Below, piece by piece: positions 10,011-19,127 of a stretch of 21,720 bases of DNA. Position 1 is the stretch's first letter, and each line of letters opens with the position of its first letter. The notes beneath the pieces are model-generated. The model was not told the DNA's origin and did not search any database. It saw nothing but the letters and a program-made list of their open reading frames with translations. Made by a program: the position numbers and the translations under genes. Origin of the DNA: Deltaproteobacteria bacterium (lineage in GTDB: Bacteria; Bdellovibrionota_F; JAHFAK01); the NCBI GenBank assembly GCA_023250585.1, contig JAHFAK010000023.1, positions 1-21,720 on the forward strand. Direction: 5' to 3'.

Positions 10011-10114
10011 GTACTCCCTAACTCCCCATCCAACTGAGCTGGTGTGAAAAAATCAAGAGAGAGCTCCATTTTTCTGAAAAAGAGCGATAGGAAACTGAAA
10101 TGTCCAAATCGACT

Positions 10115-10238
10115 GTCATTGCGAAAACCTGAAGGGTTTGAAGCAATCTCTTCTGACATATGCAGGATTGCGGAGTTTATTCCGAACCTGCTTGAGATTG
10201 CTTCGTCGGGCAAGAAAACGTGCCCTCCTCGCAATGAC
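10115..10238. repeat. Composite palindromic repeat element between pcm and the LysM/M23 gene
   Basis: The ends GTCATTGCGA (10115-10124) and TCGCAATGAC (10229-10238) are exact inverted copies, as are GAAGCAATCTC (10140-10150) and GAGATTGCTTC (10194-10204). Each arm carries its own small hairpin: AAACC/GGTTT on the left and GGGCA/TGCCC on the right. The centre forms another, GCAGG (10162-10166) with CCTGC (10187-10191), containing CGGA/TCCG. This looks like a non-coding, MITE-like or REP-like element. Short open frames across it are repeat artefacts. Confidence 0.8.
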
Positions 10239-10252
10239 AGAAGACCGTCGTT

Positions 10253-10304
10253 GTCATTGCGAACGAAGTGAGAAATCTGATTCTTGCACACCTCCTGAGC
10301 TGGT
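10253..10304. repeat. Second, partial palindromic repeat
   Basis: GTCATTGCG recurs at 10253-10261, now leading into a different sequence (AACGAAGTGAGAAATCTGATT). Read on the minus strand it ends in GGTGTGCAAGAATCAGA, which resembles GGTGTGAAAAAATCAAGA at 10041-10058 in inverted orientation. CTGAGCTGGT occurs on both sides (10034-10043 and 10295-10304). The cluster appears to be built from two related repeat families. The remainder of the gap from 10011 to 10403 shows no gene. Confidence 0.6.
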
Positions 10305-10325
10305 ACATCTTTTTAAATTAATCTC

Positions 10326-10354
10326 TTGATCAAACCTTTTAAATAGTATAAAAT
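10326..10354 (+). promoter_or_regulatory. Probable sigma-70 promoter of LysM/M23 gene
   Basis: TTGATC (10326-10331), 17 bases, then TAAAAT (10349-10354). It lies between the repeat cluster and the gene at 10404, which has an AGGGAGGG ribosome site at 10393-10400. Confidence 0.55.
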
Positions 10355-16675: not shown

Positions 16676-16748
16676 TCCCCAGTAGCTCAGTCGGTAGAGC
16701 AATTGGCTGTTAACCAATGGGTCGCTGGTTCGAGTCCGGCCTGGGGAG
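16676..16748 (+). tRNA. tRNA-Asn (anticodon GTT)
   Basis: A full cloverleaf is present. The acceptor stem is TCCCCAG (16676-16682) with CTGGGGA (16741-16747), discriminator G. The D arm contains AGCTCAGTCGGTAGAGC. The anticodon stem ATTGG/CCAAT holds loop CTGTTAA with anticodon GTT. The T arm is GCTGG-TTCGAGT-CCGGC. The 3' CCA is not encoded. A tRNA gene is a common integration site, and the genes to its right look accessory, but I found no second copy of its 3' end in the window. Confidence 0.97.
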
Positions 16749-16803
16749 CTTTTGTTCTTTCGATAAACTAATTTAACAGTTTAAAAATTTTATATCTTTG
16801 TTT

Positions 16804-17493
16804 TCAACTGTTCTCCTCTTTATTTAATTGTTTAATAAATTCGTCAACTGTGTCCTCAAAAGATAATATTTGATCTCTCAGATCACTGTCCTGAGTAATC
16901 TTAAAGTGCTCACGTATAACTTCAGAGATATTATACGCATGCATTATATTGCTCACAAACCCCTCCGATGTATATTTTTTAGAGAGTTTTAAATTGTTTA
17001 TTAACTTTCCACCACTAGGCATGCCATGGATGTACGAAGAAAGAGATCGGTAATCCATGTTATAAGGGTCCAATAGGTTCACTTCCTTAGCTCTTATTTC
17101 TAAACTTTTATTATGAAGCTTGCTGTGACTATTATTATTAGTTCGAGTAAAATAGTCTTCGCATACTGAATAAGTATGGGTTAAACCTTTCGAACAGTCC
17201 GGATGGTTAAATGCATAAACTGTATTTATATATTCTTCCGTAAGTACGCGCAGTCCAATGAGAGATAACAATAAGTCGTCCCGAAATAACGAATTATAAA
17301 TTTGAGTCATTAGCTGGCAAGATAACAGCACCTGTTTTCTAGCAATCACCCATCTCTTTTGCTCATTTTTATCCTTTATTGGCTCAAACCGAAGCAACTT
17401 ATTAGCTATATCAGTAGAGTATGTACTTGTCATAAAAGTTACCTGCTTGGCAAGGTTACGGATTACCTCAAAATTTTTATCTTCAAAATTCAT
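16804..17493 (-). CDS. HEPN-like protein, DUF5677-type, partner of S24 repressor
   Basis: The 229-residue product looks all-helical and soluble, with no signal peptide. The segment LLLSLIGLRVLTEEYIN (about 75-90) followed later by DYRSLSSYIHG (147-157) resembles DUF5677-type proteins. Arg149 and His156 fit the R-x(4-6)-H motif of HEPN ribonucleases, which are common in toxin and abortive-infection systems. This assignment is from pattern alone. The ATG shares one base with the stop of the upstream S24 repressor gene (TAATG) and is preceded by AGAGGA inside that gene, so the two are translated together. That makes it a likely effector released when the repressor is inactivated. It ends 55 bases from the tRNA-Asn gene. 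Confidence 0.75.
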   Translation of the reverse strand: MNFEDKNFEVIRNLAKQVTFMTSTYSTDIANKLLRFEPIKDKNEQKRWVIARKQVLLSCQLMTQIYNSLFRDDLLLSLIGLRVLTEEYINTVYAFNHPDCSKGLTHTYSVCEDYFTRTNNNSHSKLHNKSLEIRAKEVNLLDPYNMDYRSLSSYIHGMPSGGKLINNLKLSKKYTSEGFVSNIMHAYNISEVIREHFKITQDSDLRDQILSFEDTVDEFIKQLNKEENS

Positions 17494-18119
17494 TATCCTC
17501 TCACCTTCTTGATCACCTGTACCACTTTTCCATTAACCATGTAATCGACAAAATCATCTTCGTGAATATAAATCGGAGGAAATTCTTTGGTAGATTCTGA
17601 TAGTAAAACAATTTGATTGTTTTGTGTATCTCGACAAAACTTTTTTATATTTGCTGCGCCGTCAATGATGGAAATTACATAGTCGTTGTTTTTTGGCTCC
17701 CTGTCTTCGGAATCTATGATCACGTAATCACCATCTTCTATTGATTTGCCAGCAAAATTTGCTTTGTTCATAGAGGAACCAAGTGCTCGAACTGCAAATA
17801 ATTGTTTTTTCTTAGGAATCATCCTAGGAGAAACGGTGAGATATCCTTCAAAATTCTCAATAGCGACTTGACGAGGATCCCCGCAATTAGCAGCACCAAG
17901 AATAGGAATAGAAATCATTCTTGTTGTTTGATTATGAGCCCCTATGCTCCGCGGTTTATTTCCGTGTGTTAACAATCCTTTATTTCTTAACTGATCTAAG
18001 TGATGTTTAATTTTTTGTGGATGTGTTTCACCCACATATTCTCCCATTTCCCGCAATGTCATTAATTCTATATTTTTTTCTACCGCAAGTCTGAGAAGTT
18101 TTTTTTGTAATTCGTGCAT
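17493..18119 (-). CDS. LexA/S24-family self-cleaving repressor
   Basis: Residues 1-60 form a LexA-like winged helix-turn-helix (MTLREMGEYVGETHPQKIKHHLDQL). Residues about 72-205 are an S24 peptidase domain. The cleavage site reads GAANCGDP, that is Cys79-Gly80, like UmuD, rather than the Ala-Gly of standard LexA. The catalytic serine is Ser116 in LGSSM and the lysine Lys159 in ANIKKF, so the protein should be able to cut itself when RecA is activated by DNA damage. At 208 residues it is LexA-sized, but the changed cleavage site and accessory context argue for a phage- or island-type repressor. The gene is divergent from a Bro-N gene and overlaps the downstream HEPN-like gene by one base. No Shine-Dalgarno site is visible at the start. 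Confidence 0.9.
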   Translation of the reverse strand: MHELQKKLLRLAVEKNIELMTLREMGEYVGETHPQKIKHHLDQLRNKGLLTHGNKPRSIGAHNQTTRMISIPILGAANCGDPRQVAIENFEGYLTVSPRMIPKKKQLFAVRALGSSMNKANFAGKSIEDGDYVIIDSEDREPKNNDYVISIIDGAANIKKFCRDTQNNQIVLLSESTKEFPPIYIHEDDFVDYMVNGKVVQVIKKVRG

Positions 18120-18281
18120 AAATTATTTTTTAGTATTTATTTCTTATGGTGTCAATTAAAAATAAAATTTACTTGACAAAATTGACTATAAACCACAAAA
18201 AGGAATTCTTTAAAATTTAATCAATGGGATTTTTTCTTTTAGGCCAAGTATATTGAATAGAGTCAAAGCAGAAAGGATCGT
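18120..18281. promoter_or_regulatory. Divergent control region between S24 repressor and Bro-N genes
   Basis: TGTCAA (18150-18155) and TTGACA (18173-18178) form an inverted pair 17 bases apart, and TTGAC repeats at 18182-18186. On the minus strand TTGACA (18155-18150) with TAAAAA 17 bases on (18132-18127) is a possible repressor-gene promoter, though nearly leaderless. The GTCAA/TTGAC boxes are candidates for binding of the S24 repressor. The Bro-N gene has a GAAAGG ribosome site at its right end. Confidence 0.4.
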
Positions 18282-19127
18282 ATGGAAAAAGATAAATCAA
18301 TCGCTGAGATAAAACATCTTGTTGTTTTTAATAAAAAAGAAATTCGGAGAACTTTACATAATAATGAATGGTGGTTTGTAATCGAGGATATTGTTGCAGC
18401 TTTAACAGATTCAGTTCAACCCGCAGGATACATTAAAGATATGCGCCGTAGAGATCCTGAGCTTGCTCAAGGGTGGGGGCAAATTGCCACCCCCCTTTCA
18501 ATAGAAACATTAGGTGGGAAACAAAAGCTTAACTGTGCGAATACGGAAGGAATCTTTCGCATTATCCAGTCAATTCCTTCGCCAAAGGCAGAACCATTCA
18601 AGCGATGGCTAGCCAAAGTTGGTTACGAAAGAGTTCAAGAAATAGAAGATCCAGAACTGGCGAGTAAGCGAACTCGAGCCATATACAAAGCAAAAGGTTA
18701 CGATGATGCTTGGATCGAAAAACGGATGCGCTCGATTGCCATTCGTGAAGAGCTAACCGATGAATGGAAAGATCGCAGAGTAGGAGAAGACCGAGAATAC
18801 GCTATTCTCACGGCAGAAATTTCCAAGGCCGCCTTTGGTATGACTCCGAATGAATATAAAGATTTCAAAGGACTAGGACGCCAAAACCTACGTGATCACA
18901 TGAACGATTTGGAATTAATTTTCTCAATGCTCGGAGAAGCTGCAACCACAGAAATTACCATAAACAAAGATGCTCAAGGTTTTGATCAAAGCAAAGACTG
19001 TGCTCAAGAAGGCGGAACAATAGCTGGAAACGCTCGGAGGGATCTGGAGCAAAAAACAGGTAAGCGAGTTTCGACACGAGAAAATTATTTACTGAAGAGG
19101 CCTGATAAAAAGAGACTGGAGAATTAG
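18282..19127 (+). CDS. Bro-N domain protein (phage antirepressor/DinD-like)
   Basis: The N-terminal 115 residues are a Bro-N domain (LVVFNKKEIRRTLHNNEWWFVIEDIVAALTDS in outline, then the hallmark RIIQSIPSPKAEPFKRWLA). The central and C-terminal parts (ELTDEWKDR, EYAILTAEISKAAFGMTPNEY, NLRDHMNDLELIFSMLGEAATTEI, GGTIAGNARRDLEQKTGK) match the conserved tail of the bacterial Bro-N/DinD-like family. Such proteins occur in phages and islands as antirepressors, or as damage-induced genes of unclear function. Placed back to back with a self-cleaving repressor, this one is probably induced by DNA damage. A GAAAGG ribosome site precedes the ATG. The full length of 281 residues appears intact. Confidence 0.9.
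   Translation: MEKDKSIAEIKHLVVFNKKEIRRTLHNNEWWFVIEDIVAALTDSVQPAGYIKDMRRRDPELAQGWGQIATPLSIETLGGKQKLNCANTEGIFRIIQSIPSPKAEPFKRWLAKVGYERVQEIEDPELASKRTRAIYKAKGYDDAWIEKRMRSIAIREELTDEWKDRRVGEDREYAILTAEISKAAFGMTPNEYKDFKGLGRQNLRDHMNDLELIFSMLGEAATTEITINKDAQGFDQSKDCAQEGGTIAGNARRDLEQKTGKRVSTRENYLLKRPDKKRLEN

Follow-up and report, generated by a model that had tools for sequence, protein, structure and literature searches.

A LexA-like S24 repressor between a candidate effector gene and a divergent DdrC-like Bro-N gene may form a local DNA-damage switch

Three adjacent genes, encoding a LexA-like repressor with a Peptidase S24 domain, a 229-aa candidate effector, and a divergent Bro-N protein, are described here and read, on balance, as a local DNA-damage switch with exchangeable effectors. 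The proposal builds on the gene layout, catalytic residues, family-wide neighbors, family-specific sequence boxes, and Bro-N fold similarity seen in the analysis. The S24 protein would bind a GTCAA direct repeat in the 162-bp region common to both sides and so repress its own operon, which encodes the S24 protein itself and the 229-aa candidate effector, as well as the divergent Bro-N/DdrC-like gene. DNA damage, such as that from phage attack, would produce RecA filaments and, through them, self-cleavage of the S24 protein at Cys79-Gly80; repression would then be lost and both neighbors made, one a candidate effector of growth arrest (perhaps a HEPN-type RNase), the other a DdrC-fold protein. 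In this scheme we infer the cleavage, its RecA dependence, operator binding, effector toxicity, and the defense function. The S24 controller family heads many different defense operons, so that the window's effector would be one of several interchangeable ones; a fixed three-gene system fits less well than a conserved controller whose effectors are exchanged.

The window, meaning the whole stretch of DNA analyzed, is one entire contig (C67, 21,720 bp) from a 2.24-Mb genome bin that is 96.7% complete, and its phylum is represented by two genomes in the comparison set. All three ORFs lie where the first-pass annotation had placed them. The S24 gene (17493..18119, minus strand) encodes a 208-aa protein with a LexA-like winged helix-turn-helix (wHTH) and a Peptidase S24 domain and is followed by the second gene of the operon, that of the DUF5677-like, possibly HEPN, candidate effector (16804..17493, minus strand). 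They share one base (TAATG), a sign of possible translational coupling. The 281-aa Bro-N protein, a PDC-S13 member with a DdrC-like fold, is encoded divergently from this operon (18282..19127, plus strand). The tRNA-Asn gene reported beside the set is also present (16676-16749, plus strand). The earlier idea of an island-control unit has this tRNA neighbor as its only support, since no attachment repeat was found near tRNA-Asn and the annotated ORFs of the window include neither an integrase nor structural phage genes; a tRNA-borne genomic island at tRNA-Asn was rejected because repeat and integrase are both absent. Elsewhere in the window, a pdxA-like ORF contains the in-frame palindrome GGATTCCCGCCTTCGCGGGAATGACAG (2094-2122, peptide DSRLRGND), which resembles a REP-type repeat inserted in a coding gene, and a similar repeat-like stretch (LLRRARKRALLAMT, one frame) lies at 10044-10329 between protein-L-isoaspartate methyltransferase and NlpD-like genes. 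On another contig of the same genome (G000, contig C42, locus L071), two perfectly matching 37-bp arms around a 40-nt loop form an inverted repeat (2518-2631) just upstream of recA that resembles a small mobile element of palindromic type.

The 208-aa protein matches Peptidase_S24 (PF00717) with an E value of 7e-18 (64.9 bits) and contains Cys79-Gly80, Ser116, and Lys159, all at positions conserved across the family. S116 and K159 are invariant in the A2 family profile, and the Cys-Gly site is present in 47 of the 51 members of the window protein's clade. The intact Ser116/Lys159 dyad and Cys79-Gly80 thus bear out, as a prediction, the earlier description of a self-cleaving repressor with an UmuD-like Cys-Gly site. 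Its relatives of solved structure are LexA and UmuD, with which it shares the S24 fold, the Ser-Lys dyad, and a LexA-like N-terminal domain (21.6 bits to the LexA DNA-binding model, slightly below the cutoff); it differs from them in its local defense-operon context, GTCAA direct-repeat boxes, and Cys-Gly site. It is the single S24 (PF00717) protein found in the 96.7%-complete genome, which makes a wider SOS role possible, and it might be the genome's LexA, a global SOS repressor with ordinary SOS genes or bystanders as neighbors. A score of 98.9 bits against TIGR00498, the LexA equivalog model, and the resemblance of the Bro-N protein to DdrC and, weakly, DinD, both damage inducible, point the same way. 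That score, however, is under the LexA cutoff of 110.95 bits, the nearest kin of the protein head defense operons, and its distribution is patchy (one class has it in 4 of its 49 genomes, for example). In addition, no TTGAC/GTCAA box was found upstream of recA in the window's genome, so the protein is probably no recA repressor via that box, another operator type being possible there. We therefore regard a global LexA as unlikely.

Relatives of the S24 protein are 41 to 55% identical to it, many of them in small, Patescibacteria-like genomes. No relative scoring above 64 bits was found in 386 diverse genomes, the window itself excepted, and about 20 copies at 138 to 225 bits, far above the rest, were found in the 379 genomes of the phylum of G059. 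Genome sizes of about 0.5 to 2 Mb, together with a LexA/gpmI gene pair in G059, mark this phylum as probably the Patescibacteria. With the A2 profile, one further S24 copy was detected in the 49-genome class, and the class of G648 (383 genomes) yielded about 30 strong ones. Kin on GTDB contigs were sought with two peptide patterns. A fragment containing HPQKIKHH, a motif in the N-terminal DNA-binding region of the repressor, led to a viral contig (L073, 42% identical), L075 being the second viral contig; exact-peptide scans other than this one recovered no S24 kin. The S24 tree comprises 99 proteins and places the window protein within a 51-row clade with support of 100/99.

GTCAA/TTGAC boxes are located at 18151, 18173, 18182, and 18262. 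The proposed operator, the direct repeat GTCAA-TTTT-GTCAA (18173..18186, read on the minus strand), lies 54 to 67 bp ahead of the start codon of S24; on its other side it adjoins TATAAA (18187), which may belong to a Bro-N promoter. TTGACA at 18150..18155 (minus strand) is a possible −35 element of the S24 promoter, and the third GTCAA box, in the Bro-N leader (18262..18266), may be there by chance. The window repeat is an exact instance of the clade-specific 9-bp direct repeat, GTCAATTTTGTCAA; a GTCAA-N4-GTCAA direct repeat is expected 0.04 times in the window. Counted over the 160 bp preceding each S24 start, coding-strand GTCAA is found in 41 of 51 clade members versus 4 of 48 others (P = 8e-14), and the 9-bp-period repeat GTCAA-N4-GTC occurs in 12 of 51 versus 0 of 48, with an average of 0.16 in mononucleotide shuffles of the 55 family regions, whereas TTGAC, which is also the −35 hexamer, shows no difference (33/51 and 28/48). 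The boxes that had been noticed between the S24 and Bro-N genes are therefore real, and their enrichment in the clade, together with the exact repeat in the window, marks them as a family trait and a putative operator. Most Bro-N relatives that have no S24 neighbor have no such GTCAA boxes. An inverted operator, TTGAC..GTCAA, was also tried and had no match in the window; the direct repeat is the informative form. Sequence data thus support an S24 repressor that is placed to control both neighbors, with conserved operator-like boxes.

For the family-wide comparison, S24 loci were taken with up to 6 kb per side, and defense or toxin labels were assigned by hand from profile matches. The same-strand partner is labeled defense or toxin in 25 of 28 operonic clade members, a count that takes in the window itself and L191 (DUF2130, with no PADLOC match) and becomes 23 of 26 without both, versus 9 of 29 other S24/LexA copies (Fisher P = 6e-6, P values here being optimistic because labels were hand assigned from profile matches and rows are related). 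Those other copies, in the same genomes, adjoin recA, MazG, ftsK, and ABC-ATPase genes and a few defense genes. As 23 of the 51 clade members are without an adjacent same-strand partner, the S24 family is not solely a defense controller.

Immediately 3′ of S24 are MazF/PemK genes (seven loci), C5 methyltransferases (seven loci, 2 with Vsr and 4 of the 7 outside the window's clade), fused N6 methyltransferase/specificity proteins, HsdR of type I restriction, a CBASS cyclase (SMODS/SLATT) with a transmembrane effector (L118 and L198), PIN-TPR-GreABC (L117), metallo-β-lactamase proteins of PDC-M48B (L183 and L189), and a Bro-N gene of the same PDC-S13 family as that of the window (L108, 425.9 bits to PDC-S13). 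With the names TIR, OLD, and TcmP read from sequence, the slot also takes a TIR-like protein plus caspase (L124 and L185; no Pfam family for TIR), an OLD-type ATPase (L073; Pfam AAA_21/AAA_15), and a TcmP-like protein (L177; PADLOC PDC-M30A). Divergent defense genes stand beside S24 in L075, L121, and, by the same kind of reading, L122, where a methyltransferase lies 3′ of S24 and the divergent side carries a gene for a predicted membrane protein and, after it, a nucleotidyltransferase-like gene, an arrangement that reads as CBASS by sequence resemblance. On the S24 tree, the defense labels require 18 changes versus 29.5 for shuffled labels; they are scattered as expected under repeated effector exchange. 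The exact trio of S24, 229-aa, and Bro-N genes, which the first-pass annotation had treated as a unit, was not found in the other genomes searched, and no other locus was found with S24 next to the 229-aa protein. Metallo-β-lactamase genes (PDC-M48B or Lactamase_B) recur next to this S24 type in L075, L121, L183, and L189, and several of them have a membrane-protein partner. In L218 (G665), a CBASS-like operon is headed by a second S24 type that falls outside the window's clade, and PIN-TPR-GreABC genes are present in L238 and L239.

Three named damage-responsive controllers of immune operons, CapW/BrxR, CapH+CapP, and CapK+CapS, are treated in a 2026 paper, which mentions no S24 or LexA type among them (PMC13373217). 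CapH+CapP, a CBASS-associated repressor and an ssDNA-activated protease, resembles the proposed switch as a damage-released repressor beside varied immune operons (PMC13373217) but comprises two proteins, with the repressor cut in trans, whereas the protease domain is part of the S24 protein itself. CapW/BrxR and CapK+CapS likewise exert damage-responsive control of adjacent immune operons (PMC13373217, PMC9122601) but use a WYL domain, or a kinase and a STAS repressor, and no S24 domain; a domain search of the window's three proteins found no WYL domain, metallopeptidase partner, or STAS/GHKL pair. A literature search, mainly outside subscription papers and preprints, found no report of S24 or LexA with defense genes. 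The S24 family sits beside varied immune operons, and the role of its neighbor in the window is presumably immune as well. The controller is best read as a LexA-type, one-protein counterpart of CapH+CapP, CapW/BrxR, and CapK+CapS. We give even odds to the broader proposal of a fourth class of damage-responsive immune-operon controller. Each such controller would be a single LexA-like protein that cleaves itself and acts through a GTCAA direct-repeat operator of its own; the class would be common in Patescibacteria-like genomes and occur in other phyla too. Its downstream slot would take restriction, CBASS, MazF, caspase, OLD, and HEPN-like effectors, and in the window the controller would also drive a DdrC-like protein. 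If true, a single-protein RecA-type switch would tie phage defense directly to classical SOS logic, and the S24 family with its GTCAA repeats would provide a search handle for new effectors in hard-to-culture genomes.

The 229-aa protein had been proposed as a HEPN-type gene product, with a profile check against DUF5677 suggested. The DUF5677 match (residues 113-161, E = 2e-4) spans R149 and H156 and is subthreshold, at 21.7 bits versus a cutoff of 27.1. The R-x6-H motif itself stands, at 149-156, but shuffling this protein yields an R-x4-6-H pattern in 64% of cases, so the motif by itself has no weight for HEPN. R-x6-H, a helical prediction, and a weak DUF5677 match recall HEPN toxins and DUF5677 proteins, though at a score below threshold; the single-sequence model is all helical and, at a pLDDT of 42.9, too poor to use. 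The protein remains a possible HEPN protein and is a candidate effector mainly by its operon position. No homolog was found in 59 relatives, plasmids, phages, IMG/VR (two scans), or GTDB contigs; weak matches (E = 0.002 to 0.009) occur in 5 of 379 Patescibacteria-like genomes. At an E value of 0.001, no DUF5677 protein was found in the window's genome and eight other genomes. The protein could instead be a repair or RNA-binding helper, no toxin, that acts with the DdrC-like protein in a DNA-repair operon. As a toxin the protein is hypothetical, and the DdrC fold points to DNA repair; the same-slot partners in related loci are toxins or defense enzymes, however, and we think a repair operon improbable.

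The 281-aa protein matches Bro-N (E = 1e-12) and PADLOC PDC-S13 (365.3 bits, residues 11-274 of 281) and also falls in phrog_15286. PDC-S13 is listed as a single-protein candidate, and this member differs in standing opposite an S24 operon. A model built from eight sequences (pLDDT 81.7) has all three full-length entries of Deinococcus DdrC as its top structural matches (Foldseek E = 2e-7; Z = 14.1 over 223 residues, both domains). The rmsd of 11 Å probably reflects domain orientation, and the N-terminal domain alone matches the DdrC N-domain (8u1j, Z = 6.1). VIA-align rows beyond DdrC, a granulovirus Orf22 domain, and the DdrC N-domain were low-Z or helical-bundle matches and were set aside. 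The top three sequence matches of the Bro-N family profile are also DdrC entries (E = 0.012 to 0.041). By its model, the Bro-N protein has the DdrC fold over its full length, at about 11% identity to DdrC of Deinococcus radiodurans. DdrC is a damage-induced DNA-binding protein with DNA-break-binding activity; in Deinococcus it is controlled by DdrO and IrrE/PprI and is not known to be under an S24 protein. The likeness makes the damage theme credible, and it suggests a DdrC-like working of the widespread PDC-S13 family. DinD of Escherichia coli was considered as kin of the C-terminal half and set aside as weak (hhalign probability of 51 and 30), DdrC being far better.

These matches also bear on whether the locus is the remnant of a prophage switch, in which an S24 repressor and a Bro-N antirepressor are accompanied by an unrelated passenger gene. 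In PHROGs, Bro-N relatives carry the annotation antirepressor and S24 that of phage repressor, and two S24 kin are on viral contigs (L073 and L075). Yet the N-terminal domain of the repressor is a LexA-type winged helix and not a phage XRE, the full-length match of the Bro-N protein is to the DdrC fold and PDC-S13, and integrase and structural phage genes (among the ORFs) and an attachment repeat are all lacking; such a remnant is very improbable. Bro-N does not need this S24 type, since no S24 gene was found within about 1.5 kb of Bro-N relatives in 30 genome loci, and the wider loci examined for five close relatives also lacked one. In a small genome (L227, 6522-7337), a LexA-like gene has a DinD homolog 5 bp downstream (E = 4e-72 to E. 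coli DinD). In G001, the only other genome of the class, a Bro-N relative 70% identical to that of the window lies beside a 1,045-aa gene that is Cas9-like by its N terminus (L242, 4521-8708). The best-scoring Bro-N relative outside the class (L241, 6807-7745; G132) begins directly after tRNA-Arg, and the module in the window is also near a tRNA.
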